NCBI RefSeq assembly: GCF_002160865.1
Contig: NZ_NFLJ01000017.1
Span: 1 to 56,318 of the forward strand
Direction: 5' to 3'
From: Massiliimicrobium timonense
GTDB lineage: Bacteria > Bacillota_I > Bacilli_A > Erysipelotrichales > Coprobacillaceae
DNA length: 56,318 nt
Positions 4,783 through 19,535 of the stretch are shown here, piece after piece. Made by a program: the position numbers and the translations under genes. The notes below the pieces were generated by a model, which made no database searches, was not told the DNA's origin, and worked only from the letters and a program-made list of their open reading frames with translations. Numbering within the stretch: the stretch's first letter is position 1; every line of letters starts with the position of its first letter.

Positions 4783-4811
4783 TTTTTTTTGTCTTTTAAA
4801 TGTGTTAGAAT
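4783..4811 (+). promoter_or_regulatory. his operon promoter, extended -10
   Basis: TGTTAGAAT (TG-n-TAGAAT, hexamer at 4806-4811) is an extended -10 element with a T-rich, weak -35 region 17 bases upstream. Transcription would begin near 4818, about 16 bases before the leader peptide start codon. Confidence 0.55.
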
Positions 4812-4833
4812 GATAAAAAATGAGGTGATATTT

Positions 4834-4890
4834 ATGAAAAAGACAATTTTAAATCAACAATTTCATCACCATCATCATTGGAACACTTAG
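4834..4890 (+). CDS. hisL: his operon leader peptide
   Basis: An 18-codon open frame reads MKKTILNQQFHHHHHWNT and stops with TAG. Five consecutive histidine codons (4864-4878) are the sensor: ribosomes stall there when charged His-tRNA is scarce. GAGGTGAT lies a few bases upstream of the ATG as ribosome site. It sits between the his promoter and a terminator hairpin just before hisZ, exactly the arrangement of the enterobacterial hisL. The peptide is the regulatory device rather than a functional product. The symbol is used by analogy. Confidence 0.88.
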   Translation: MKKTILNQQFHHHHHWNT

Positions 4891-4893
4891 GGT

Positions 4894-4991
4894 TATATCT
4901 TAGAAAGATACAGCCCGTTTTGCATATATTTATAAATGGGTGTATCTAATGACTTAGAAAGAATGGACGAGTCATTATGGCTCGTCTTTTT
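4894..4991 (+). promoter_or_regulatory. Histidine attenuator (alternative hairpins plus terminator)
   Basis: Right after the leader peptide stop, competing pairings can be drawn. TATCT (4896-4900) pairs with AGATA (4906-4910). The same AGATACA(g)CCC strand (4906-4916) pairs better with GGGTGTATCT (4938-4947). TCTAA (4945-4949) pairs with TTAGA (4954-4958), and AATGAC (4948-4953) with GTCATT (4971-4976), which overlaps the terminator. The terminator is GACGAG (4966-4971) with CTCGTC (4981-4986) followed by five T. A ribosome stalled on His codons would cover the first strands and shift the fold. The precise antiterminator needs folding software. Confidence 0.8.
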
Positions 4992-5007
4992 AGTTAAGGA
5001 GGACTTT

Positions 5008-5970
5008 ATGGAAGAATTTAAATATTTGATACCAGAAGAAAGTATTGATGCCATTATGGATAATGTTTCTGTACTCAGAGACATTGAAAAGGATTTAAGA
5101 CATCTCTTTGTTGAACGTGGGTACTTGGAAGTTTTAATGCCTTCTTTTGAATATGTTGATCTTTATAATGATATGGATATTGGAATTGATGAAGAAAAGA
5201 TGTTTCAATATGTCAATTATGAAGGAAAAAGAGTCGCTTTAAGAGTGGATTTTACAGTTCCACTTGCAAGATTATATTGTTCACAAAATGAAAATGGTGA
5301 AAAAAGATATTGTTATTTTGGAAAGGTTTATCGAAAAGAAAAAAGGCATAAAGGAAGAAGCAGTGAGTTTTTTCAGGCAGGAGTTGAACTGATTGGGAAG
5401 GGAGGATTTGCTGGTGATTTGGAATGTCTGGAACTTGTTTTAAAGACAATGACATGTTTAAAATTGAAACATATACGTATTGAGATGGGATCAGCTAAGT
5501 TTTATCATCGTTTGGTCGAGATTGTTGATGATGAACGATTTATAGATATTTTGAAACGACGTGATTTAAGTGCTATGAAATCATTTGTGGAAAGTCATCA
5601 CTTTGATCAAAGTATACAGACATTATTAATGACTTTACCTCAGGCATTTGGGGATGTTCAAGTGTTATATGATATGAAAAATAGAGTGGAAGATACATTG
5701 TTGAAGGAAGCGATTGAAGAATTGATTGAACTGTATGAAAAGATTCCTCATAGAGAACTTCTGACTTTTGATTTAGCGATGACACCCATGATGAAATATT
5801 ATACGGGAATCATGTTGAAAGGCTATTCTCCTTATAGCGCACAACCAATTATGAATGGGGGACGTTATGATCATTTGATGAATCATTTTGATCGAGAGGT
5901 TCCAGCCATTGGCTTTAGTTATGAGTTAAGTCATATTTTAAAGGCCTTAGAAAAGGAGGAGGAAGCATGA
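5008..5970 (+). CDS. hisZ: ATP phosphoribosyltransferase regulatory subunit HisZ
   Basis: A class II histidyl-tRNA synthetase-like protein without the tRNA-binding domain; it activates short HisG and confers histidine feedback. Synthetase-like motifs include FTVPLARLY and the [17 protein letters not shown] segment. The start at 5008 ([12 protein letters not shown]) has AAGGAGG seven to eight bases upstream; an upstream in-frame ATG at 4936 lies inside the attenuator and is rejected. 320 residues is slightly short for HisZ. It overlaps hisG by four bases, and the pairing with a 205-residue HisG confirms identity. It is the first structural gene under the attenuator. Confidence 0.93.
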
Positions 5971-6584
5971 TTAAAATAGCAATAACGAAAGGTCGTATTG
6001 AAAAACAGGTTTGTCAGTTGTTGGCTGAAAAGGGCTTTGATATGGAGCCTATTATTCATAAAGATCGTGAATTGATGATTGAAACAAGTGATGGTTTATC
6101 TATGATTTTTGCAAAGGCAAATGATGTTTTAACCTTTTTAGAACATGGTATTGTGGATATTGGTTTTGTTGGTAAAGATACTTTGGAAGATAGTGATTTT
6201 CAAGATTATTATGAGATGTTGGATTTAAATATTGGAAAATGTTATTTTGCTTTAGCGGCATATCCAGAATATCGTGATAAGATTTTTAAACGTCGTCAGC
6301 GTATTGCTTCCAAATATACGAAGGTAGCTAAAGATTACTTTCATCAAAAACAACAGGATGTTGAAATTATTAAATTAGAAGGTTCGGTAGAATTAGGGCC
6401 GGTTGTGGGATTAAGTGATGCGATTGTGGATATTGTAGAAACTGGTTCAACTTTGAAGGCAAATGGTTTAGAAATTATTGAAAAAATTAGTGATGTATCA
6501 ACAAAGATGATTGTAAATAAAGTGAGTTTGAAGTTTAAAAAAGATGAAATCTTTGATTTGATAGAAAAATTAAAGGGGGAATAA
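5967..6584 (+). CDS. hisG: ATP phosphoribosyltransferase, short form
   Basis: Catalyses the first histidine step, condensing ATP with PRPP. At 205 residues it is the short HisG form, which lacks the C-terminal ACT-like regulatory domain and needs HisZ, encoded immediately upstream with an ATGA overlap. Typical segments are [11 protein letters not shown] at the N-terminus, [13 protein letters not shown], and the PRPP-binding stretch [28 protein letters not shown]. Expression should follow the upstream attenuator. Confidence 0.96.
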
Positions 6585-6586
6585 AG

Positions 6587-7915
6587 ATGTTGAAGACATA
6601 TGATTTACAAGGACAATTCAAAGATGTGGTGAAGAAGTTTTCTTCACGTAAAACAGAAATTTCGCAACAGGTTAATGAAACTGTGATGCAAATGATTGAA
6701 GATATCGAAAAAAATGGTGATCAGGCCATCATGAAATATTGTTATGAATTGGATGGATATAGGATGGAAGGACCACAAGATTTTATTGTTTCTAAACAAG
6801 AAATTTTAGATGGTGTGACAAGTGTTGGGAAAGATTTTATGCGTATATTGGAACGTACAAAAGAACAACTGATTGATTTTCATCAACATCAAGTTGATCG
6901 TTCATGGTCTATTTATAAGGAAAATGGAGTGATGATGGGACAGATTGTACGTGGCTTAGAAAAAGTTGCTTTATACGTACCAGGTGGAACTGCCACATAT
7001 CCTTCAACGGTCATGATGAATGCGATTCCTGCCAAACTGGCTGGTGTCAAAGAATTGATAATCATCACACCTGTGAAGGCTGATGGAAAAGTGAATCCTT
7101 CTATTTTAGCAGCTGCTTATGTCTGTGGCATTGAACGTATTTATAAAGTAGGAGGAGCACATGGTGTTGCCGGTGTAGCTATCGGAACAAATATGTTACC
7201 AAAGGTAGATAAGATTGTTGGTCCCGGAAATATTTATGTTGCGACAGCTAAAAAATGTTGTTATGGGCGTGTGGATATTGATATGATTGCGGGTCCTAGT
7301 GAAGTCTTGATTGTTGCTGATGAAAAAGCCAATCCACAATACATTGCAGCTGATTTAATGAGTCAGGCAGAACATGATAAATTGGCGAGTGCTATTTTGG
7401 TGACAACATCTCAATCATTGATTGAACAGGTAAATGTCGAGCTTCAAAAACAGATGCCATTTTTATCAAGAGCTGATATTATTGAATCATCATTGACAAA
7501 TTATGGTGGTGCCTTTTTGGTGGATTCTATTGAGGAAGCTTTTCAGGTATCTAATGAATTTGCGCCAGAACATTTAGAAGTTTTAGTAGAAAATCCAATG
7601 AATACTTTACCTTTGATTCATAATGCTGGTTCTATCTTTTTAGGAGAATATACACCAGAACCATTAGGGGATTATATGTCTGGAACAAATCATGTCTTAC
7701 CAACAGGAGGAACAGCTAAATTCTATAGTGCTTTAGGTGTTTATGATTTCGTGAAGTATTCATCTTATAGTTATTATCCAAAACAAGTTTTACAGACTTT
7801 TAAAGATGATGTGATGACTTTTGCAAACAAAGAAGGATTGGATGGACATGCAAATAGTATTGCAGTGAGATTTAAGGAGGATGAATCATGCGACAAAGTC
7901 AAATCAAAAGAATAA
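6587..7915 (+). CDS. hisD: Histidinol dehydrogenase
   Basis: Oxidises L-histidinol to L-histidine in two NAD-dependent steps using zinc. Visible signatures are VPGGTATYPSTVMMNAIPA, the DIDMIAGPSEVLIVAD stretch, and the catalytic Glu-His pair in NEFAPEHLEVLVENP. 442 residues is slightly longer than usual, with the extra length at the C-terminus that overlaps hisB by 28 bases. GGGGGAATAAAG precedes the ATG two bases after the hisG stop. Confidence 0.96.
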   Translation: MLKTYDLQGQFKDVVKKFSSRKTEISQQVNETVMQMIEDIEKNGDQAIMKYCYELDGYRMEGPQDFIVSKQEILDGVTSVGKDFMRILERTKEQLIDFHQHQVDRSWSIYKENGVMMGQIVRGLEKVALYVPGGTATYPSTVMMNAIPAKLAGVKELIIITPVKADGKVNPSILAAAYVCGIERIYKVGGAHGVAGVAIGTNMLPKVDKIVGPGNIYVATAKKCCYGRVDIDMIAGPSEVLIVADEKANPQYIAADLMSQAEHDKLASAILVTTSQSLIEQVNVELQKQMPFLSRADIIESSLTNYGGAFLVDSIEEAFQVSNEFAPEHLEVLVENPMNTLPLIHNAGSIFLGEYTPEPLGDYMSGTNHVLPTGGTAKFYSALGVYDFVKYSSYSYYPKQVLQTFKDDVMTFANKEGLDGHANSIAVRFKEDESCDKVKSKE

Positions 7916-8475
7916 CAAAGGAAACATCTATTGAAATGTCCCTTTGCTTAGAAGGAACAGGTCAAGCTCAAGTAGATACGGGCATTGGATTTATGGATCA
8001 TATGTTTGAGTTATTAGCTTTTCATAGTGGAATAGATTGTATTGTCAAATGTCAGGGTGATTTAAAAGTAGATAGTCATCATACAGTAGAAGATTTAGGA
8101 ATTGTTTTTGGTGAATGTTTAAAAGAAGCATTGGGAGATAAAAAAGGAATTTATCGTTATGGTCAAATGGCTATTCCTATGGATGAAGCTCTAGTCACAA
8201 CGACACTGGATTTAAGTGGACGCCCTTATCTTGTTTATCAAGCTCAATTACCTTGCCAGCATTTAGGAAATTATGAAACAGAAATGACAAAAGAATTTTT
8301 TAAAGCTGTCAGTGATCATGCTTTGATGACATTACATATTGTAGAGAACTATGGAGAAAATACACATCATATTATTGAAGCTATGTTTAAGAGTTTTGCC
8401 AGAGCTTTAAAACAAGCTATTTGTATTGATGAAAAGAATAGGGAACAAATTGTTTCTTCTAAAGGAGTCTTGTAA
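7888..8475 (+). CDS. hisB: Imidazoleglycerol-phosphate dehydratase
   Basis: Dehydrates imidazole glycerol phosphate to imidazole acetol phosphate. The metal-binding motifs HHTVEDLGI and ENTHHIIEAMFKSFARALK are both present, as is the N-terminal TGIGFMDHM. 195 residues is the monofunctional form, so no histidinol-phosphatase domain is fused. GGAGGATGAATC just before the ATG at 7888 lies inside the end of hisD, indicating translational coupling. Confidence 0.96.
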   Translation: MRQSQIKRITKETSIEMSLCLEGTGQAQVDTGIGFMDHMFELLAFHSGIDCIVKCQGDLKVDSHHTVEDLGIVFGECLKEALGDKKGIYRYGQMAIPMDEALVTTTLDLSGRPYLVYQAQLPCQHLGNYETEMTKEFFKAVSDHALMTLHIVENYGENTHHIIEAMFKSFARALKQAICIDEKNREQIVSSKGVL

Positions 8476-8476
8476 G

Positions 8477-9082
8477 ATGATTGTGATTATTGATTATCAT
8501 GTAGGTAATCTCATGAGTGTTCAAAATGCTTTTTTAAAACTAGGTATGGATGTTGTTGTGAGTCGTGACCATGATGTCATTCGTCAGGCCAAAGGGATTG
8601 TTTTGCCGGGAGTCGGAACTTTTCCAGTGGCGATGGAACATTTAAAACAATATGATTTGATTGATATTTTAAATGAAAGACAACAGGCCGGTATTCCCAT
8701 TTTAGGGATTTGTTTAGGAATGCAAGTCTTATTTGAAAAAGGATATGAAGTTTGTCCAACACAAGGTTTAGGCTTTTTAAAGGGAGAAGTTCGACGCATG
8801 GAAGTTCAGGCAAAGATTCCTCATATGGGATGGAATGATTTAATAATGCAACAAAAACATCCTCTCATGCAATATGTTCATCAAGGAGATTATGTCTATT
8901 TTGTTCATTCTTATATGGCATATCCTACTGATGATGAGTTGATTGCTTATTGTGAGTATGGGCAAGAAAAGATTACAGCTGTTGTTGCTAAAGACAATGT
9001 TATGGGATGTCAGTTTCATCCTGAAAAAAGTGGAAAAGTTGGTCAAAAAATATTATTAGCGTTTAAGGAGATGGTAAAATGA
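8477..9082 (+). CDS. hisH: Imidazole glycerol phosphate synthase, glutaminase subunit
   Basis: A class I glutamine amidotransferase that feeds ammonia to HisF. The nucleophile is Cys79 in GICLGMQ, and the His-Glu dyad is in QFHPEKS near the C-terminus. The start at 8477 (MIVIIDYHVGN) is favoured by AAAGGAG upstream; the in-frame ATG at 8426 lies within hisB and would add 17 unrelated residues. 201 residues is standard. It is separated from hisB by one base and overlaps hisA. Confidence 0.96.
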   Translation: MIVIIDYHVGNLMSVQNAFLKLGMDVVVSRDHDVIRQAKGIVLPGVGTFPVAMEHLKQYDLIDILNERQQAGIPILGICLGMQVLFEKGYEVCPTQGLGFLKGEVRRMEVQAKIPHMGWNDLIMQQKHPLMQYVHQGDYVYFVHSYMAYPTDDELIAYCEYGQEKITAVVAKDNVMGCQFHPEKSGKVGQKILLAFKEMVK

Positions 9083-9816
9083 TAATCATTCCAGCAATTG
9101 ATTTAAAAAATGGGGAAGCTGTTCGTTTATATAAGGGCGATTATCAACAAAAAACAGTCTATTCTTCTTCACCAGAAATGCTGGCTCAAGCCTTTGAAAA
9201 CATGGGAGCAATGTATCTTCATGTTGTGGATTTGGACGGGGCTAAAGATGGCATGACAACCAATATAGAAACAATTAAAAAAATACGTAATACGATCTCT
9301 ATCCCTATTGAAGTGGGTGGAGGTATACGTGATGCCAGAACGGTTTCTTTATATTTAGATAAAATTGGTATCAATCGTGTTATTCTTGGGACTGCAGCTA
9401 TTCAGAATCCAGATTTTCTAAAAGCAATGTTAAAACAATATGGGGCACAAAAGATTGTTGTAGGGGTAGATATTAAAGATGGGTATGTTTCGACTTCAGG
9501 ATGGCTAGTACAAACCCAAGTCCATTATTTAGATTTTTTAAAAACATTAGAGAAGATGGGTGTTCAATACGTTATTTGTACAGATATATCGAAAGATGGA
9601 ACTTTACAAGGGCCTTCATTTGATATTTATCAACAAATCAAAGATACAACATCTTTACGCTGTATTGTATCAGGTGGTGTCAAAGATAGAAATGATGTTT
9701 TAGAAGCTTATCGTCAAGGTTATGAAGGCTGCATTGTAGGTAAGGCTTATTATGAAGGAAAAATTGATTTAAAAGAGGTGATAGAATGCTTGCCAAAAGA
9801 ATCATCCCCTGTTTAG
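9079..9816 (+). CDS. hisA: ProFAR isomerase HisA
   Basis: A (beta/alpha)8-barrel isomerase of the aminoaldose ProFAR intermediate. The two catalytic aspartates are in IPAIDLKNG near the N-terminus and TDISKDGTLQGP in the second half, and both half-barrels end in phosphate-binding loops (VGGGIRD, VSGGVKD). 245 residues is normal. Its end overlaps hisF by 31 bases, an unusually long overlap for these two genes. Confidence 0.96.
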   Translation: MIIIPAIDLKNGEAVRLYKGDYQQKTVYSSSPEMLAQAFENMGAMYLHVVDLDGAKDGMTTNIETIKKIRNTISIPIEVGGGIRDARTVSLYLDKIGINRVILGTAAIQNPDFLKAMLKQYGAQKIVVGVDIKDGYVSTSGWLVQTQVHYLDFLKTLEKMGVQYVICTDISKDGTLQGPSFDIYQQIKDTTSLRCIVSGGVKDRNDVLEAYRQGYEGCIVGKAYYEGKIDLKEVIECLPKESSPV

Positions 9817-10553
9817 ATATTAAAGATGGAAAAGTTGTAAAAGGTGTCAATTTTGTTGGCTTAAAAGATATTGGTGATCCAGTAGAGATTGCCAAACGCT
9901 ATGATGAACAATGTGCAGATGAAGTTGTTTTTCTTGATATTACAGCGACTTATGAAAATCGAGATATTCTTAAAGATGTCATTCAAAGAGCTGCCTGTGA
10001 ACTTTCCATTCCTTTAACTGTTGGTGGGGGTATTCGTACATTGGATGACTTTCGTATGATTTTATCCAGTGGAGCAGATAAAGTCTCTATTAATTCAGCA
10101 GCTATCTTAAATCCTCAACTTATCAAACAGGCATCCGATGAATTTGGTGTGCAATGTGTTGTTGTGGCTATTGATGCGAAAAAACGAGAAGATCAATCGG
10201 GTTATGATGTCTATATAGCCGGTGGTAGAAAAAACACAGGTTTAGATTTATTAACATGGGCCAAACAATGTGAAGATTTAGGAGCTGGTGAAATCTTATT
10301 AACATCAATGGATCGTGATGGAACAAGAGATGGTTTTGATATTGATATGTTGAATGCACTGATGCGTGTTGTGTCGATTCCTGTGATTGCCAGTGGTGGC
10401 TGTGGAGGACAGGAAGATATTGTAGAAGTATTTGAAAAAACAAATTGTGATGGGGCTTTGGCGGCTTCTTTGTTTCATTATCAGGAAGCAACCATTGAAG
10501 ATGTTAAGGCATTGTGTGCCAAACATCATATCCCCGTAAGGAGGGAATTATGA
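9786..10553 (+). CDS. hisF: Imidazole glycerol phosphate synthase, cyclase subunit
   Basis: The barrel partner of HisH; it uses ammonia to form imidazole glycerol phosphate and AICAR. Catalytic aspartates are visible in [13 protein letters not shown] and [15 protein letters not shown], and phosphate loops in VGGGIRT and ASGGCGG. 255 residues matches the family. The start lies inside hisA and the TGA stop overlaps the hisIE start as ATGA. Confidence 0.97.
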
Positions 10554-11194
10554 AACCAGATTTTGAAAAAGGGAATGGCTTAGTACCAGCCATTGTACAA
10601 GATGCAAAAACAAAGTCCGTTTTAATGTTGGCTTATGTTAATGAAGAAGCATATGATAAAATGTTAGAAACAGGTGAAACTTATTTTTATTCACGCTCAC
10701 GTCAGGAACTGTGGCATAAGGGTGAAACATCAGGACATTTCCAATATATTCAAGGCATGTATCTGGATTGTGATGATGATACTTTACTGATTATTGTTGA
10801 TCAAGTAGGAGCAGCTTGTCATACTGGTTCCTATTCATGTTTCTTTCAAGAGATAATTCCTTATGTTTTTGAAAAAACAATCTTTCATGAAGTTTATGAT
10901 GTGATTGCTGATCGTCATATTCACCCTGTTGAAAAATCTTATACAAATTATCTATTGGATCAAGGTGTTGATAAGATTTGTAAAAAGGTTGGAGAAGAAG
11001 CGAGTGAAACCATTATTGCTGCAAAAAACAATAATAAAGAGGAATTAATTGGAGAAATCAGTGATTTATTTTATCATGTGCTTGTTTTGATGTATCAACA
11101 AGGTATTCAAGTGGAAGATATCGAAAAGAAACTTCAGGAAAGACATCAAATCAGTGGAAATAAAAAAGAATTTCATCAAAGAGGAGATTATTGA
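10550..11194 (+). CDS. hisIE: Bifunctional PRA-CH hydrolase / PRA-PH pyrophosphohydrolase
   Basis: The N-terminal HisI half (to about residue 105) opens the adenine ring; it has the [15 protein letters not shown] motif and the metal site DCDDDTLL with [10 protein letters not shown]. The C-terminal HisE half (from about residue 120) hydrolyses the pyrophosphate and shows [18 protein letters not shown]. The start at 10550 has GGAGGG upstream and overlaps the hisF stop. 214 residues is the normal fused length. It is the last gene; no hisC or phosphatase gene follows. Confidence 0.96.
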
Positions 11195-11602: not shown

Positions 11603-11631
11603 GAATTTATAAATAGGAAAGGAGTATGTTT

Positions 11632-12123
11632 ATGGGAGGTTTGAAACAAGAGTATTTAGATAAGATTGATGCGATTGTTGATCAGCATAAGGATCAAAAA
11701 GGACCTATGAAATTAATGCTTCATGATATTCAAGATGAGCTTGGCTATATCCCTTTTGAGGCAATGGTAAAAATAGCTGATGCTTTGAATGTTCCTGTTT
11801 CTAAGGTTTATGGTGTTGTGACTTTTTATTCACAGTTTACAACCGAACCAAAGGGAAAGCATGTCATTTCAGTTTGTCTTGGAACAGCCTGTTATGTCAA
11901 TGGAGCACAGACGATTTTAGATTTGCTTTGTGAAATGACGGAATGTGAAGTGAATTCTACCAGTGAAAATGGATTGTTTTCAATTGATGCCACGCGTTGT
12001 GTGGGAGCTTGTGGATTGGCTCCAGTTGTCAGTGTGGATGGGACAGTTTTTGGATGTCAGAAACAACTGGAAGATCTGAAAATGCTTATTCTTGATTATT
12101 TGAAGGAAGAAGAACCATGTTAG
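11632..12123 (+). CDS. NuoE/HndA-like [2Fe-2S] hydrogenase subunit
   Basis: A thioredoxin-fold [2Fe-2S] protein equivalent to the 24-kDa subunit of complex I and HndA of NADP-reducing hydrogenases. The cluster ligands are Cys82 and Cys87 (CLGTAC) and Cys123 and Cys127 (CVGAC). It transfers electrons between NAD(P)H at the flavin subunit and the hydrogenase. ATG at 11632 is preferred because GGAG lies seven bases upstream; the ATG at 11626 is only two bases from it. First gene of the hydrogenase operon, overlapping the next by seven bases. Confidence 0.92.
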   Translation: MGGLKQEYLDKIDAIVDQHKDQKGPMKLMLHDIQDELGYIPFEAMVKIADALNVPVSKVYGVVTFYSQFTTEPKGKHVISVCLGTACYVNGAQTILDLLCEMTECEVNSTSENGLFSIDATRCVGACGLAPVVSVDGTVFGCQKQLEDLKMLILDYLKEEEPC

Positions 12124-12467
12124 TTCAAGATATCGTGGCTCTTTTAAAAGCAAGAGAAATCTATATTGCACAAGATAATATTTATCAAAAAAATTATGAT
12201 AAAGGTTTTGCGACTGATTTAATGTCGGATGCTTTAGCTTTGTTGAAGGATGAAACAGAAGATGTTTTATTTTTAACAGGATTAGCCAATGTACAATCTT
12301 TACGTACAGCAGAGGTTTTGGATTTAGATACAGTGATTTTGGTGAGAGGAAAACCATTGGATCAACAGATGATAGAAACAGCGAAAGATTTACACATTAA
12401 TCTTTTTCAAACTGATCAAACGATGTTTGAAGCCTGTGGGCTTTTATATGGAAAAGGAATGAGATAA
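12117..12467 (+). CDS. DRTGG-domain protein (first copy)
   Basis: A 116-residue protein consisting of one DRTGG domain, recognised by the LFLTGLANVQSLRTAEVLDLDTVILVRG segment and the terminal MFEACGLLYGKGM. DRTGG domains occur between CBS and other domains in phosphotransacetylase-like and regulatory proteins and are thought to bind a ligand, but their role in hydrogenase operons is not established. It overlaps both neighbours, so it is tightly coupled to them. A second, diverged copy lies at 14036. Confidence 0.8.
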   Translation: MLVQDIVALLKAREIYIAQDNIYQKNYDKGFATDLMSDALALLKDETEDVLFLTGLANVQSLRTAEVLDLDTVILVRGKPLDQQMIETAKDLHINLFQTDQTMFEACGLLYGKGMR

Positions 12468-12874
12468 TGAAATATGTTTATCAAGTAGAAAAAGAAAATT
12501 ATGAGGATGCAGGGAAAGCCTCTACAGATATTAAAAGAACTTTAAAAACAATTGGCATTGATCGTCGTGTTCTTAAGGCTGTAGCGATAGCATGTTATGA
12601 AGCTGAAATAAATATTGTGATTCATTCCAATGGTGGAACTGTGACTTTTGAAATGGATGATGATGGTGTTATCACATTATCTTTTGACGATGTTGGACCG
12701 GGTATAGAAGATCTGGAATTAGCACAAACACCGGGTTATTCGACTGCCTCTACAAAAGCACGTTCTTTAGGTTTTGGAGCTGGAATGGGATTGTCTAATA
12801 TGAAAAGTGTTGCGTCTTCATTTCAGATTACATCTTCGCCAGAGGGAACACATATTCAAATGACATTTCAATGA
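12467..12874 (+). CDS. Anti-sigma-factor-like GHKL ATPase (RsbW-type)
   Basis: A 135-residue stand-alone GHKL ATPase domain like RsbW/SpoIIAB serine kinases. The N-box is in CYEAEINIVIHS, the G1 box is DDVGPGI, and the G2 box is GFGAGMGLSNM. No sensor or dimerisation domain is present. Proteins of this kind phosphorylate anti-anti-sigma factors, but no such partner is encoded nearby, so the target in this operon is unknown. Start and stop overlap the flanking genes. Confidence 0.82.
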   Translation: MKYVYQVEKENYEDAGKASTDIKRTLKTIGIDRRVLKAVAIACYEAEINIVIHSNGGTVTFEMDDDGVITLSFDDVGPGIEDLELAQTPGYSTASTKARSLGFGAGMGLSNMKSVASSFQITSSPEGTHIQMTFQ

Positions 12875-14031
12875 AACCAGTTATTCATTTTTTAGGGGAT
12901 CACTGCAAAAACTGTATTAAGTGTGTCAAATCTTGTCCTACAGAAGCGATTTCTATTATGCATGGTCAAGTGATGATCGATGATTCAAGCTGTATCAATT
13001 GCCATGTCTGTGTGCAATCCTGTGATTATAAACAATTAAAAATTAAAGAAGTGAATCTTACAAAAGCCTTTGAAAAACATGAATATAATATTGCTTTGAT
13101 TCCAACATCTTTATTATCTGATTTTAAAAGTTTTGATGAATTAAAAGCTTTTATTCATGCTATTAAAGCTTTTCATTTTGATGAGGTTGTGCAATATAGT
13201 GATATTGAAGGATATCTTTACCAACAGGCTATTGAAACCAGTTTTCAATCAGATCGTGTGATGTTGACATCTTTTTGTCCAAGTATTAATCGTTTGATTA
13301 AACAGGAATATCCTACATTAATAGATCATCTATTACCTTATGATTATCCTGTAGAAATTGCAGCCAGACGTTTAAGAAAGAAATATCAAGGTAAAGATAT
13401 TGGTATTTTTTCACTCTGTGAATGTGTTGGAAAACTCACTTTAGCGAAAGAACCTTTAGGTAAAGACAATTCACAGATTGATTATGCTTTAAGTATTTCA
13501 CGTATGTTTCCACATTTTAATAAACGAAAAAGCCAACAAAAAGATGATATTGATATATACCGTGATGGTGTGAAAAGTATTGTCAGTGATTTATTTGGTA
13601 AAGATCATTTACAAGTGATGAGTGTGGAAGGTTTACCACAAATTCGCATGGTTTTAGATTTGATTGAATTTGATCGTTTAAAGGATATTCGTTTGATTGC
13701 TTTGTATCATTGTTATCAGGGATGTATTGGTGGTTATTATTTATGGAATAATCCCTTTGAAGGACGTTTTCATATTGAAAGTATGTTGAATGATTGTTTA
13801 GACAATCATCTGATATTAAGTGAAGATGAATATCTTAAAAAACGTCAGATCAATGTTCAAAAACAATCCATTCAAGAGCGTATGAAATGGTTTCAAAAAG
13901 TGAATGCGATTTTGGATACTTTACCTCAATATGATTGTGGAAGTTGTGGTTTTGCCAATTGTCGTGGTCTGGCTATGAAAATAGCGAGTGGTGAAGTAGA
14001 TGATTCACTTTGTCGAATCAAAAGAAGGTGA
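12871..14031 (+). CDS. Hydrogenase-like Fe-S protein with degenerate H-cluster motifs
   Basis: Residues 1-60 hold two [4Fe-4S] motifs (CKNCIKCVKSCP, CINCHVCVQSC). Residues about 70-300 resemble the large C-terminal domain of [FeFe] hydrogenase. The expected TSCxP motif is TSFCPS, the MPCxxK motif is SLCECVGK, and the third retains only YQGCIGG. A C-terminal Fe-S domain reads CGSCGFANCRGLAMKIASGE. Loss of the key cysteines argues against H2 catalysis and for an electron-transfer, scaffold or sensing role. 386 residues; overlaps the ATPase gene upstream. Confidence 0.8.
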   Translation: MKPVIHFLGDHCKNCIKCVKSCPTEAISIMHGQVMIDDSSCINCHVCVQSCDYKQLKIKEVNLTKAFEKHEYNIALIPTSLLSDFKSFDELKAFIHAIKAFHFDEVVQYSDIEGYLYQQAIETSFQSDRVMLTSFCPSINRLIKQEYPTLIDHLLPYDYPVEIAARRLRKKYQGKDIGIFSLCECVGKLTLAKEPLGKDNSQIDYALSISRMFPHFNKRKSQQKDDIDIYRDGVKSIVSDLFGKDHLQVMSVEGLPQIRMVLDLIEFDRLKDIRLIALYHCYQGCIGGYYLWNNPFEGRFHIESMLNDCLDNHLILSEDEYLKKRQINVQKQSIQERMKWFQKVNAILDTLPQYDCGSCGFANCRGLAMKIASGEVDDSLCRIKRR

Positions 14032-14035
14032 GAAT

Positions 14036-14362
14036 ATGCAGGTCAAACAAATATTACAGTTACCTTTGGAACTCATCAATGATGTCAGTTGTAAGCAGGA
14101 AATCAAAGATGTTTATATAGGTGACTTATTGAGTGTTGTGATGGCACATGGAAAAGAAGGAACGTTATGGTTGACAGTTCAAAAACATTTAAATGTGGTG
14201 GCCGTTGCACAGTTGCTTGATTTTGCAGGGATTGTCTTTGTACAGGGATCGTATCCTGATGAGGAAACGATTCAAAAGGCAACAGAGTTGCAGATTCCTT
14301 TGCTGGTCAGCCCTAAAGATGCTTTTGCACTTGTCAAAGATTTGATAACGTTAGGTTTATAA
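14036..14362 (+). CDS. DRTGG-domain protein (second copy)
   Basis: A 108-residue DRTGG-type domain, with IGDLLSVVMAHGKEGTLWLT, DFAGIVFVQGSYPDEETI and a C-terminal PLLVSPKDAFALV. It is diverged from the copy at 12117 and both are single-domain. ATG at 14036 follows AAGGTGAGA; the ATG at 14000 lies within the upstream gene and lacks a ribosome site. It may pair with the first copy as a heteromeric ligand-binding unit, which is inference only. Confidence 0.75.
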   Translation: MQVKQILQLPLELINDVSCKQEIKDVYIGDLLSVVMAHGKEGTLWLTVQKHLNVVAVAQLLDFAGIVFVQGSYPDEETIQKATELQIPLLVSPKDAFALVKDLITLGL

Positions 14363-14363
14363 T

Positions 14364-15068
14364 ATGTATTATGATTTACACATTCATTCTGCTTTATCAC
14401 CTTGCAGTGATGATACCATGACCATTTATAATATCTTTCATATGGCTTATATCAAAGGTTTAGATTTGATTGCGATTACTGATCATAATTCTTTAAAACA
14501 ACAACATCATTTAGAAAAAGTCATTCAAAGCCCTATTTTAAAAGGAAAGATTGATTTTATATATGGAGTAGAGTTACAAAGTTGTGAAAATATTCATGTT
14601 TTGGCTTATTTTCAAAGAGGAACACATTTACAGCCTATTCAACAATGGATAGATCAGCATCTTATGAAAACAATTAATCAAAAAGATTACTATGGAAATC
14701 AATATATATTCGATGAAAATGATCAAATTATAGATGAAGAAGTTTATCTTCTTTTAAATGCATTAGATTTAACATTAAATCAAATCATTACCAAGATTCA
14801 TCAGTTTCAAGGAATAGCTGTTTTAGCTCATGTTTTCCAAAAAAAATATGGTGTTTATGAATTGTATCAAGATATACCAGAATCTTTGGATTATGATGGT
14901 ATTGAAGTGAGCAGTTTAAAACAGTTAGCTGATTTAAAGAAACTTTGTCCTCATTGTAGGGATAATCTTGTTTTGATCAATAGTGATGCTCATCAATTAG
15001 AAGATATCCAAGAACCACTTTATCAGATTGATTTTCAACAGTTAGAAAAGATATGGAGAAAAAGATAA
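14364..15068 (+). CDS. PHP-domain phosphoesterase
   Basis: A 234-residue PHP-fold protein. Metal-binding residues are seen in MYYDLHIHSALSPCSDD, AITDHNS, YGVELQS, LAHVFQKK and the closing NSDAHQLEDI. PHP proteins hydrolyse phosphate esters, and some are histidinol-phosphatases. The position here, inside a hydrogenase operon between a DRTGG protein and an ATPase, argues against a histidine role although the his operon lacks that enzyme. Its substrate is not known. TAATG overlaps the following gene. Confidence 0.85.
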   Translation: MYYDLHIHSALSPCSDDTMTIYNIFHMAYIKGLDLIAITDHNSLKQQHHLEKVIQSPILKGKIDFIYGVELQSCENIHVLAYFQRGTHLQPIQQWIDQHLMKTINQKDYYGNQYIFDENDQIIDEEVYLLLNALDLTLNQIITKIHQFQGIAVLAHVFQKKYGVYELYQDIPESLDYDGIEVSSLKQLADLKKLCPHCRDNLVLINSDAHQLEDIQEPLYQIDFQQLEKIWRKR

Positions 15069-15601
15069 TGCAGGAAATAGCAATGACAATTTTGGATATG
15101 ATTCAAAATTCTTTACGTGCTCAAGCTTTACAGATCCATTTATGGATTAAAGATAGTATCAAGGATAATATGATTCATATTGAAATATGTGATAATGGTT
15201 GTGGTATGAGTTTAGAAACTTTACAACAAGTCACGAATCCCTTTTTTACGACACGTACCACACGTTCTATTGGTTTAGGTATTCCTTTGTTTAAAGAAAG
15301 TGTAGAAGCGACGGGCGGTTATTTTCAAATAGATTCTCATTTACAAAAAGGAACAAAAATCATAGGTGAATATGTAAAAAATCATATTGATACACCTCCA
15401 ATGGGAAATTTAGTTGATACTATGATCACTTGTATTCAATATGATGAAAAAGTGAATTATTGTTTTCATTATCAAAATGATGATTGGGCATTTGATATGA
15501 ATACAGAAGATATAAAAGCTCTTTTGGGTGATGTGCCAATCAATCAGCCAGAAATCATACTATGGTTAAAAGATTATATAAAGGAGGGTATGCATCAATG
15601 A
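15068..15601 (+). CDS. Histidine-kinase-like GHKL ATPase
   Basis: A stand-alone ATPase domain (about 177 residues) with N-box LDMIQNSLRA, G1 DNGCGM, an F-box NPFFTTRTTRS and G2 IGLGIPLF. No phosphoacceptor histidine domain or membrane segment is visible, so it is not a conventional sensor kinase. The start at 15068 overlaps the PHP stop as TAATG; an ATG at 15053 is possible. It overlaps the next gene by four bases. It is the second GHKL protein of the operon. Confidence 0.8.
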   Translation: MQEIAMTILDMIQNSLRAQALQIHLWIKDSIKDNMIHIEICDNGCGMSLETLQQVTNPFFTTRTTRSIGLGIPLFKESVEATGGYFQIDSHLQKGTKIIGEYVKNHIDTPPMGNLVDTMITCIQYDEKVNYCFHYQNDDWAFDMNTEDIKALLGDVPINQPEIILWLKDYIKEGMHQ

Positions 15602-15966
15602 AGTCATTGGATGAATTGAAGAAAATTAGGTATCAGGCAAAAGAAAGAATGGCCATGCGTGGCCAAGATGGACAGGATTATCGTGTTGTGGTAGGAATGG
15701 CAACCTGTGGTATTGCAGCAGGAGCTCGTCCTGTATTGAACACCTTTGTCGAAGAAGTGGCTAAAGCTCATTTACCTGTTGCAGTCATGCAAACAGGATG
15801 TATTGGTATGTGTGCTTTAGAACCCATTGTAGAAATTTTTGATAAAGATAATCAAAAAACCACATATGTATTGGTTGATGAAAAGAAAGCGAAAGATATT
15901 GTTTTACGTCATTTGATACATGGTGAAGTGATTGATGAATATACTGTCGGACATTATTCAAAATAG
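15598..15966 (+). CDS. HndB-like thioredoxin-fold ferredoxin
   Basis: A 122-residue protein with GMATCGIAAGARPVL and TGCIGMCALEP, matching the [2Fe-2S] thioredoxin-like HndB subunit of NADP-reducing hydrogenases. It probably relays electrons between the flavin and hydrogenase subunits. ATG at 15598 is chosen because AAGGAGGG precedes it; the upstream ATG at 15562 is within the ATPase gene. Eleven bases separate it from the flavoprotein gene. Confidence 0.85.
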   Translation: MKSLDELKKIRYQAKERMAMRGQDGQDYRVVVGMATCGIAAGARPVLNTFVEEVAKAHLPVAVMQTGCIGMCALEPIVEIFDKDNQKTTYVLVDEKKAKDIVLRHLIHGEVIDEYTVGHYSK

Positions 15967-15977
15967 GAGGTGCAAAG

Positions 15978-17777
15978 ATGCCATATAAGAGAACGCAAGT
16001 CTTAGTTTGTGCTGGAACAGGATGTACAATTGGAAATTCTGGAGCATTAATAGAAGAATTTGAAAAAGAAATCAAGTCGATGGGGCTTGATAAAGAAATT
16101 GAGGTTTTAAGAACAGGTTGTTTAGGGTTATGTGGGGCTGGACCTAATATTTCTATTTATCCTGATAATATTATTTACAAAGGTGTCAAAAAAGAAGATG
16201 TGAAAGAAATTGTGCAGGAACATCTTTATAAAGGACGTCCTGTTGAACGTTTGATGTTGAATGAATCTGATCAAGAAACAAAGGAAATTCATGATATTAG
16301 TCATACACGTTTTTATCAAAAGCAAAAGCGTGTGGCTTTGCATAACTGTGGAATCATTGATCCTGAAAACATTGAAGAATATATTGGACAGGATGGGTAT
16401 TTTGCTTTAGGTCAGGTTCTATCACAGATGACCCCTCAAGAAGTTATTGATATCATTAAAGAGAGTGGTTTAAGAGGTCGTGGTGGAGGAGGTTTTCCAA
16501 CTGGACTAAAATGGCAGTTTGCCTATAATGAACCGGGTGATGAAAAATATGTGATTTGTAATGCTGATGAGGGAGATCCAGGCGCATTTATGGATCGTTC
16601 CATTCTCGAAGGAAATCCTCATAGTGTCATTGAAGCAATGGTTATTGCTGGTTATGCGATTGGGGCTCATTATGGATATATTTATATTCGTGCTGAATAT
16701 CCTATTGCGGTGGAACGTTTAAAAACAGCGATTGCTCAAGCAAAAGAATTGGGATTATTAGGAACAAATATTTTTGATTCTGGCTTTGATTTTGATTTGG
16801 AAATTCGTTTAGGCGCTGGTGCTTTTGTCTGTGGAGAGGAAACAGCGTTGATTCAATCTATTGAAGGTGAACGAGGAATGCCTGTTTCAAAACCACCATT
16901 TCCAGCTTATAAAGGCGTATGGGGAAAACCAACGATTATTAATAATGTTGAAACCTATGCCAATATTGCTCAAATTATTTTAAATGGTGCAGACTGGTTT
17001 AGATCTATTGGAACAGAGTCGTCACCAGGAACAAAAGTTTTTGCTTTAGGTGGTAAAATTACCAATACAGGACTTGTTGAAGTCCCAATGGGAACAACGC
17101 TGCGTGAAGTCATTTATGAAATTGGTGGTGGTTGTCCAAATCATAAACAATTCAAAGCTGTTCAGACAGGTGGACCATCAGGTGGATGTTTGACAGAAGA
17201 ACAATTAGATACGCCTATTGGTTTTGATGAACTGGTGAAATTAGGTTCAATGATGGGGTCAGGTGGTATGATTGTTTTAGATGAAGATAATTGTATGGTT
17301 GATGTGGCTAGATTTTATATGGATTTTATCGTTGATGAATCTTGTGGAAAATGTACACCATGCCGTGTTGGAACAAAGCGTATGCTGGAATTGTTGGAAC
17401 AGATTTGTGACGGACAAGGGACAATGGAAACATTGGATGAACTGGAAACATTGGCTATGACAATTAAAGATACAGCTTTGTGTGGATTAGGTCAATCTGC
17501 GCCAAATCCTGTTCTTTCAACAATTCATCAATTTAGAGATGAATATCTGGCACATATCATTGATAAAAGATGTCCAGCGGGAGTCTGTAAAAAATTATTA
17601 CGTTATGAAATCAATAAAGATGAATGTCGTAAATGTGGTCTTTGTGCAAGACAATGTCCTGTGGGAGCCATTAGTGGAAAGATTGGAAAAGAAGCCTTTC
17701 AGATTGATCCTGACAAATGTATTCGCTGTGGTTTATGTATGAAAGCATGTCACTTTAAAGTGGTAGAAAGAAAGTAG
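15978..17777 (+). CDS. HndC/NuoF-like NAD(P)H- and FMN-binding hydrogenase subunit
   Basis: The diaphorase subunit. An N-terminal [2Fe-2S] thioredoxin-like domain is followed by the complex-I 51-kDa fold: NAD(H)-binding GRGGGGFPTGLKW near residue 163, an FMN segment NADEGDPGAFMDR near 195, an SLBB region, and the [4Fe-4S] site Cys456, 459, 462 and 502. Two ferredoxin-type motifs (CRKCGLCARQCP, CIRCGLCMKAC) close the protein. 599 residues is the usual length. AGGAGGTG precedes the ATG. It should couple NAD(P)H, and possibly ferredoxin, to the HydA subunit; electron bifurcation is plausible but unproven. Confidence 0.93.
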   Translation: MPYKRTQVLVCAGTGCTIGNSGALIEEFEKEIKSMGLDKEIEVLRTGCLGLCGAGPNISIYPDNIIYKGVKKEDVKEIVQEHLYKGRPVERLMLNESDQETKEIHDISHTRFYQKQKRVALHNCGIIDPENIEEYIGQDGYFALGQVLSQMTPQEVIDIIKESGLRGRGGGGFPTGLKWQFAYNEPGDEKYVICNADEGDPGAFMDRSILEGNPHSVIEAMVIAGYAIGAHYGYIYIRAEYPIAVERLKTAIAQAKELGLLGTNIFDSGFDFDLEIRLGAGAFVCGEETALIQSIEGERGMPVSKPPFPAYKGVWGKPTIINNVETYANIAQIILNGADWFRSIGTESSPGTKVFALGGKITNTGLVEVPMGTTLREVIYEIGGGCPNHKQFKAVQTGGPSGGCLTEEQLDTPIGFDELVKLGSMMGSGGMIVLDEDNCMVDVARFYMDFIVDESCGKCTPCRVGTKRMLELLEQICDGQGTMETLDELETLAMTIKDTALCGLGQSAPNPVLSTIHQFRDEYLAHIIDKRCPAGVCKKLLRYEINKDECRKCGLCARQCPVGAISGKIGKEAFQIDPDKCIRCGLCMKACHFKVVERK

Positions 17778-17786
17778 GTGTAGAAG

Positions 17787-19535
17787 ATGTCAAAAATAAA
17801 AATTACCATTAATAATCGAGAAGTGGAAGCCTATGAAGGACAGACTGTTCTAGAAGCTGCCAAGAATAATGGCATTCATATTCCTACTTTATGTTATCTA
17901 AAAGATGTCACTGGAACGGGTGCCTGTCGTGTCTGTCAAGTCGAAGTTGAAGGTGCTAAGACTTTATGTGCAGCGTGTGTTTATCCAGTCAGAGAAGGCA
18001 TGGTTATTAAGACCAATTCACAAAGAGCATTGGATGCCAGACGTAGAGTGGTGGAATTGATTGTTTCCAATCATTCTAAAGATTGTTTATCTTGTATTCG
18101 TAATACGAATTGTGAATTACAGCGTTTATGTCAGGAATTAGGTGTTCGTGAAGATGCTTTTGCTGGTGAAAAGAGTGAACCAACATTTGACACAGTTTCA
18201 CCAGGTATTGTGCGTAATACATCAAAATGCGTTTTATGTGGACGTTGTGTGGAAACATGCCAAAAAGTTCAAGGATTAGGAATTTTAGGTTATATGAATC
18301 GTGGCTATAAAACGAAGGTTGGACCGATTTATGATAAAAGCTTTGATGATGTCAATTGTATGCAATGTGGGCAATGTATTAACGTTTGTCCAGTGGGTGC
18401 TTTACATGAAAAAGAAGAAATACATTATGTGATTGAGGCTTTAAATGATCCAACGAAGCATGTTGTTGTGCAAACAGCACCAGCTGTTCGTGGGGCTTTA
18501 GGTGAAGAATTTGGTATGCCTATTGGCACAAGAGTTACAGGAAAGATGGTTCATGCTTTAAAGCTGGTTGGTTTTGATAAGGTTTATGATACCAATTTTG
18601 GGGCTGATTTAACAATTATGGAAGAAGGTTATGAGTTTTTAGGACGTTTGAAAAATCAGGGGACTTTGCCAATGATTACATCATGTAGTCCGGGCTGGGT
18701 GAATTATATTGAACATGAATATCCTGATTTATTAGATCATCTGTCTACTTGTAAATCCCCTCATATGATGTTAGGGGCGATGGTGAAATCTGTCTATGCA
18801 CAATCTAAAGGGATTGATCCAAAAGATATTTATGTTGTTTCGATTATGCCTTGTGTCGCTAAAAAGGGTGAAAAAATACGTCCTGAAAATAAAACAACAC
18901 ATTATCAGGATGTTGATGCTGTTTTAACAACACGAGAATTAGCAAAACTGATTAAGATGTTTGGAATTAATTTTAGAGATTTAAAAGATGATGATTTCGA
19001 TCAAGATTTATTTGGTGAATATAGTGGAGCTGGTGTTATTTTTGGTGCCAGTGGTGGTGTGATGGAAGCAGCCTTAAGAACAGTCGCTGATGTTTTGGCT
19101 CATGAAGACTTGACGATGATTGATTATCATGCGATTAGAGGTGTTGAAGGGGTGAAAGAGTCAACCATTAAAATTGGTGATCAGACATTAAAGGTTGCGG
19201 TTGCTCAAAGTATGTCACTGGCCAAACCATTGTTAGATGATATTCGTCAAGGTATTTCGCCTTATCATTTTATTGAAATCATGGGATGTCCGGGTGGATG
19301 CATTAATGGTGGTGGACAGCCATATGTTAATGCAACTATAAGAAATAGTGGATTTAATTTTAAAGCTGCCCGAGCCAAAGCTTTGTATGATGAGGATGTG
19401 TCTTTACCAGTACGTAAATCTCATAAAAATTCTCAAATACAGGATCTCTATCGCAATTATTTAGATCATCCTAATAGTGAAAAAGCACATCAGTTGTTGC
19501 ATACACACTATAATCAAAAAGCAAAGTTTAAGTGA
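17787..19535 (+). CDS. [FeFe] hydrogenase catalytic subunit HndD/HydA-like
   Basis: The H2-evolving or oxidising subunit. It has an N-terminal [2Fe-2S] domain (cysteines near 36, 47, 50 and 64), a His-ligated [4Fe-4S] site (HSKDCLSC near residue 96), two ferredoxin motifs, and an intact H-cluster domain: TSCSPGW (Cys300), MPCVAKKGE (Cys356), and MGCPGGCINGGGQP (Cys501, Cys505). The C-terminus keeps the small-subunit-like segment. 582 residues is typical. Maturases HydE, HydF and HydG are not in this window. Confidence 0.95.
   Translation: MSKIKITINNREVEAYEGQTVLEAAKNNGIHIPTLCYLKDVTGTGACRVCQVEVEGAKTLCAACVYPVREGMVIKTNSQRALDARRRVVELIVSNHSKDCLSCIRNTNCELQRLCQELGVREDAFAGEKSEPTFDTVSPGIVRNTSKCVLCGRCVETCQKVQGLGILGYMNRGYKTKVGPIYDKSFDDVNCMQCGQCINVCPVGALHEKEEIHYVIEALNDPTKHVVVQTAPAVRGALGEEFGMPIGTRVTGKMVHALKLVGFDKVYDTNFGADLTIMEEGYEFLGRLKNQGTLPMITSCSPGWVNYIEHEYPDLLDHLSTCKSPHMMLGAMVKSVYAQSKGIDPKDIYVVSIMPCVAKKGEKIRPENKTTHYQDVDAVLTTRELAKLIKMFGINFRDLKDDDFDQDLFGEYSGAGVIFGASGGVMEAALRTVADVLAHEDLTMIDYHAIRGVEGVKESTIKIGDQTLKVAVAQSMSLAKPLLDDIRQGISPYHFIEIMGCPGGCINGGGQPYVNATIRNSGFNFKAARAKALYDEDVSLPVRKSHKNSQIQDLYRNYLDHPNSEKAHQLLHTHYNQKAKFK

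Follow-up and report, generated by a model that had tools for sequence, protein, structure and literature searches.

The textbook case of amino-acid attenuation usually comes from enteric bacteria. The gammaproteobacterial His leader (Rfam family RF00514) has a leader ORF rich in His codons, alternative hairpins and a terminator located before the first his gene, all features that recur at the locus described here. Attenuators of this type have already been predicted in Erysipelotrichales, Peptostreptococcaceae, Lutispora and the B. cereus group by Ashniev et al. (2022, PMC9413887), who also named Eubacteriales among the orders concerned and whose Erysipelotrichales genera were Eggerthia, Erysipelatoclostridium, Catenibacterium, Coprobacillus and [Clostridium]. 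Judged by taxon, operon and the leader anatomy given in the main text of that paper, the likeness is close, with the same order and operon, three to five His codons directly upstream of the attenuator, a terminator with an alternative antiterminator, and lineages devoid of HisR or T-box control of his. An earlier note on this DNA had regarded such a leader as unusual for a Firmicute, but it is not without precedent. Neither Massilimicrobiota nor the term anti-antiterminator occurs in the main text of PMC9413887; the attenuator type being already predicted, the sole candidate novelty here is the wiring of a leader segment designated below as S1, which is possibly new. Two other Firmicute systems offer partial parallels. 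The published leucine-rich attenuator peptide of the S. aureus ilv-leu operon (PMC5794164) also places a Firmicute amino-acid operon under leader-peptide control, but with leucine codons and for another operon. In the B. subtilis vmlR leader, stalling of the ribosome on an upstream ORF keeps an anti-antiterminator from forming, and the antiterminator wins over the terminator (PMC9226507), a logic similar to the one proposed here, although the signal in vmlR is antibiotic-bound ribosomes instead of a shortage of His-tRNA and the sequence is unrelated.

The window analysed is a 56,318-nt stretch of a Massiliimicrobium timonense contig (family Coprobacillaceae), in which an operon with a gene order read as hisZ-G-D-B-H-A-F-IE is preceded by a His-rich leader (Table 1). 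The hisD gene was identified by Pfam (PF00815), the other his genes being named from their translations alone, and a longer hisZ frame starting at 4936 was discarded, since it stems from the mechanical way in which the ORF list assigns start codons. The leader ORF reads ATG...CAT CAC CAT CAT CAT TGG AAC ACT TAG, and the positions, the 18 codons and the five His codons followed by Trp were correctly described in the earlier note. Transcription may start near 4818, as suggested by the position of a predicted extended -10 element that a standard -35/-10 promoter scan did not report. In the source sequence, the ribosome-binding site of the leader is complementary to a CACC motif within the His codons (4866-4871), a pairing that could hide this site when the ribosome is absent. 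Downstream of the his operon, positions 11626-19535 carry what reads, from translations only, as an [FeFe] hydrogenase-type cluster, including a PHP-domain-like ORF and an ATPase-like ORF.

Table 1. Features of the his leader region and operon (positions in the window).
Feature	Positions	Strand	Basis
Predicted extended -10 element, TGtTAGAAT	4803-4811	+	TG-n-TAnnAT-like motif recurring in aligned upstream regions, by eye
Ribosome-binding site of the leader ORF, GAGGTG	4822-4827	+	Similar site upstream of nearly all leaders
Leader peptide ORF, MKKTILNQQFHHHHHWNT-stop	4834-4890	+	ORF, stop position and His run kept, with few exceptions, throughout the 39 distinct sequences
Run of five His codons, candidate stall sites	4864-4878	+	Sequence and masking scan
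S1, last His codon, Trp codon and AAC AC; proposed anti-antiterminator arm	4876-4886	+	Predicted pairing with S4/S5
S2, 5' arm of the first hairpin, abutting or overlapping the stop codon	4890-4899	+	S2:S3 pairing
S3, partner of S4 or of S2, forming with the latter the first hairpin, a possible pausing site	4907-4916	+	Alignment
S4, partner of S3 or S1	4938-4946	+	Alignment
S5, 5' strand of the antiterminator, UAAUGACU	4947-4954	+	Alignment
S6-S7, intrinsic terminator	4965-4991	+	Alignment, terminator scan
Ribosome-binding site of hisZ, AGGAGG	4997-5002	+	Sequence
hisZ, first gene of the operon	5008-5970	+	ORF; relatives directly behind a matching leader in L009-L026
hisG, hisD, hisB, hisH, hisA, hisF, hisIE, remaining operon	5967-11194	+	ORFs, translations

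As the earlier note had proposed, the same leader was looked for in related genomes. A HisZ scan using one genome per species yielded 18 close loci (L009-L026), from Massilimicrobiota, Longibaculum, Stoquefichus, Thomasclavelia, Faecalibacillus, Erysipelatoclostridium, Sharpea, Kandleria and others, and every one of these loci carries a His-rich leader in the corresponding position. With a covariance model built from these leaders and the source sequence, and under strict filters that lose weak matches, the element was detected in 39 of the 43 genomes of the family, covering 17 of its 20 genera, with one copy per genome, and in none of 273 genomes from elsewhere in the order. Three of the four family genomes devoid of the element also lack hisD; in the fourth (G039), hisD is found ca. 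1.45 kb from the start of a contig, and hisZ and its leader are probably off that contig. Among the distant hisZ loci listed from outside the family (within L027-L040), no comparable His-run leader was found in the upstream 400 nt. In one locus (L161 in G016), hisZ is separated from the terminator by more than 100 additional bases, which match no Rfam family at gathering score.

A run of at least three consecutive His codons is found in 38 of the 39 distinct leader sequences, and of at least four in 34; in the source genome, it spans the eighth to the fourth codon before the stop. Since runs of four His codons are not rare in this genome (CAYCAYCAYCAY was found 55 times), the run by itself was dropped as evidence, and what goes beyond chance is the conservation of the element. 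Within the last four His codons, variation affects the third position in 31 cells, the second in seven and the first in one, the latter being an alignment gap; as read from this alignment, substitutions in the run are mostly synonymous. In the position of the last His codon, 38 sequences have CAT and one has CGT, while the preceding His codons alternate between CAT and CAC, as the proposed pairing of S1 with S5 would require. The His run is directly followed by TGG in 32 of the 39 sequences, and the earlier note, which had drawn attention to this codon, was right as to its presence. Such conservation could suggest that the leader senses Trp in addition to His, but this involves a single codon, which gives way to an Arg, Ala, His or Gly codon in the remaining seven sequences, five of them retaining the predicted S1 pairing via other bases (p <=0.02 against shuffled arms), and which pairs with S4/S5 in most sequences. 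A second sensed amino acid is thus highly improbable; the Trp codon is more likely maintained because UGG can pair with CUA/CUG than for Trp sensing, being plausibly conserved due to its location in the S1 arm that pairs with the antiterminator strand.

Folding revealed that the 198-nt leader is more stable than its shuffled counterparts (z = -3.46), and the terminator comprises 10 pairs and a T-run, with 0.0 such terminators expected by chance as judged from shuffles. Its helix, S6:S7, is paired in 98.7% of cells, with double changes at six of eight pairs, a level reached by none of 500 shuffles. The competing antiterminator, S5:S6, is paired in 90.7% of cells and has double changes in two pairs (five cells, a count also reached by 0/500 shuffles). 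Its 3' strand (4970-4977) consists of the 5' arm and loop of the terminator, a strand common to both helices, and S5:S6 and S6:S7 are mutually exclusive. The S3:S4 helix is paired in 89% of cells, with double changes in two of nine pairs and a covariation score matched by two of 500 shuffles. In the first hairpin, S2:S3, 90.5% of cells are paired, as compared to about 31-43% for slid registers; this hairpin is mostly invariant and devoid of double changes, and thus carries little information beyond its 90% pairing. These data substantiate the competing hairpins and Rho-independent terminator that the earlier note had placed before hisZ.

The pairing of S1 with S4/S5 is supported in a different manner. 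Taken alone, S1:S5 is paired in 90% of cells, with a weak column covariation that is not clearly above that of shuffles. Across 34 representatives, the cognate S1:S4S5 duplex has an energy of -13.0, versus -11.4 for permuted combinations (sd 0.30), and none of 20,000 permutations was as low, in statistics that ignore relatedness. The duplex outperforms shuffled S1 arms in most species, those no better than shuffles at p 0.05 being L012, L023, L025, L124, L125 and L126, and the pairing is preserved with other bases in several lineages devoid of the Trp codon (AGACACAC, AUCACAG). In L126 (G009), a divergent relative, the S4/S5 segment has a different sequence (CGGACACGAAACAAUGAC), with S2:S3 and the terminator retained; there, the complementarity of S1 is shifted by eye (UCGUG with CACGA), with a duplex p of 0.125 against shuffles.

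Conservation of the helices exceeds that of the peptide in its N-terminal half, and in one genome (G006, L125/L160) the leader is degenerate, reading HRHW with no stop, with the terminator retained and S5:S6 weaker by eye. The his genes of this genome are open over the stretch read (hisZ, hisG and hisD), and its leader looks like a local decay of the attenuator, which is possibly still decaying or fixed in one state. Both observations would fit a protein- or ligand-sensed riboregulator, in which the His-rich ORF would be incidental or a plain translated leader. Hairpins outliving the His run and the stop, which the earlier note had named as evidence against its own reading, are however confined to this single case: elsewhere, the run is kept in 38/39 sequences, mostly with synonymous changes, and the stop position in 37/39. 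Moreover, an Rfam scan of the window returned no riboswitch, T-box or any other family at gathering score, and no T-box (RF00230) was detected upstream of hisZ or elsewhere in the window. Membership in a T-box, riboswitch or RF00514 family was therefore rejected, and we give very little credence to a riboregulator of this kind.

Outside the window, 21 T-box matches were found in the source genome. One of these (L149, contig C20) lies before a gene named hisS from its translation and has a specifier read by eye as CAC (His). This genome thus appears to sense His-tRNA in two ways, by the hisS T-box and by a ribosome-sensed his leader. No match to the TrpR/HisR family (PF01371) was found in the source genome; the only one over the cut-off in the family occurs in G029 (L136), a genome that also carries the His leader.

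The effect of a ribosome was approached by masking the RNA before folding. In full-length leaders at equilibrium, the terminator was always formed, even with masks, and these folds were set aside as uninformative; antitermination must therefore be kinetic. Partial transcripts of the 39 distinct sequences, ending just before S6 or just before S7, were folded instead, and these equilibrium folds, noisy when viewed sequence by sequence, indicate what is possible and not rates. In free RNA before S6, S1:S4S5 forms in 85% of sequences and S2:S3 in 82%. A ribosome on the last His codon abolishes S1:S4S5 (0%), with S3:S4 found in 79% before S6, and, once S6 is made, S5:S6 rises to 62% as compared to 41% in free RNA. 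On the first His codon, the disruption is only partial, S1:S4S5 persisting in 44%. With a leading footprint edge of 12 nt, the effect of masking sets in 6-7 codons before the stop, within the His run, and shifts by about one codon for edges of 9 or 15 nt. A ribosome at the stop codon results in S3:S4 in 97% and S5:S6 in 95% of sequences. The idea that S3:S4 is a switch blocking S5:S6 was rejected, as both helices coexist in these folds. In masked folding, which the earlier note had also suggested, a ribosome over the later His codons removes S1:S4S5 and frees the antiterminator; the terminator does have an alternative, S5:S6, which is conserved and forms in partial folds.

Comparative and folding evidence together support the ribosome-sensed His-codon attenuator of a Firmicute his operon put forward in the earlier note. 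That His attenuation at this locus is mediated by the ribosome is very likely; as a whole, the locus is probably best explained by transcription attenuation of the his operon through the ribosome, and the exact wiring, with S1 as the anti-antiterminator, is held with slightly less assurance. According to this scheme, when His-tRNA is ample, the ribosome would traverse the 18-codon leader and depart, and the freed end of the leader, S1 (CAUUGGAACAC), would pair with S4/S5 around the S2:S3 hairpin, where the polymerase may pause. S6 would then be left free to form the S6:S7 terminator, and transcription would end before hisZ. When charged His-tRNA is scarce, the ribosome would stall within the His run and cover S1, leaving S4/S5 free, so that S5:S6 could form, beside S3:S4 when present, and RNA polymerase would continue into hisZ and the remaining operon.

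The architecture had been described in the earlier note as textbook for enteric bacteria, which holds for the His leader and the terminator, but less so for the rest. The window scores 18 bits against RF00514, with a gathering score of 49 bits, and 0/43 family genomes match this model. If segments A to F of E. coli his are equated, in that order, with S2 to S7, the antiterminated state S3:S4 + S5:S6 is presumably the counterpart of B:C + D:E. E. coli his and RF00514 have a C:D hairpin, whereas the family leader has no hairpin holding the antiterminator strand alone: the partner of S4 is S3, and S5 has no partner other than S6 or S1, so that this strand would be held by the 3' codons of the leader itself. 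An enteric-type wiring would nevertheless be conceivable, in which S2 is masked by a ribosome that has reached the stop codon and S3:S4 alone permits the terminator, while a ribosome stalled at the His codons leaves S2:S3 in place and the antiterminator freed, the S1 pairing being incidental. The stop codon adjoins the S2 arm in 37/39 sequences, as if a ribosome parked there should mask S2, and E. coli his does operate via alternating hairpins. Yet, with the ribosome at the stop, the frequencies given above leave S3:S4 and S5:S6 far from mutually exclusive, no C:D-like hairpin is available to hold S5, and the S1 pairing is kept above permutation level. Such a wiring is therefore considered unlikely, and S1 as anti-antiterminator remains the preferred reading. 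A control fold of E. coli hisL revealed that its free leader also pairs the coding region with a segment before the terminator, which suggests that S1-type pairing may not be unique to the family and that the difference is perhaps one of degree.

If the codons of S1 hold the antiterminator strand, readthrough is predicted from any ribosome on the end of the leader, and the predicted stop-codon state is the opposite of that in RF00514. The predicted promotion of readthrough by a ribosome waiting on the stop codon is possibly a new point, resting on the folding model. Since the folds with a ribosome in this position likewise tend towards the antiterminator, its release must be quick. In its strongest form, by which any ribosome on the 3' end of the leader, stop codon included, leads to readthrough and only ribosome-free RNA terminates, the proposal is tentative and rather doubtful. 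If true, the attenuator would read the time during which the leader is occupied, and the role of the stop codon would be the reverse of that in E. coli his and trp.

The main gain of this analysis is a well-resolved anatomy, with clear predictions, for a kind of switch predicted before. According to PMC9226507, the RNA polymerase of B. subtilis runs ahead of the ribosomes. In gut Bacillota, a leader-peptide attenuator present across a whole family offers a setting in which translation very probably steers transcription at an early stage, and the conserved hairpin before S4/S5 is a specific candidate site for a synchronising pause. With a hisS T-box and a his leader in the same genome, two sensors of one tRNA may be compared within one cell.
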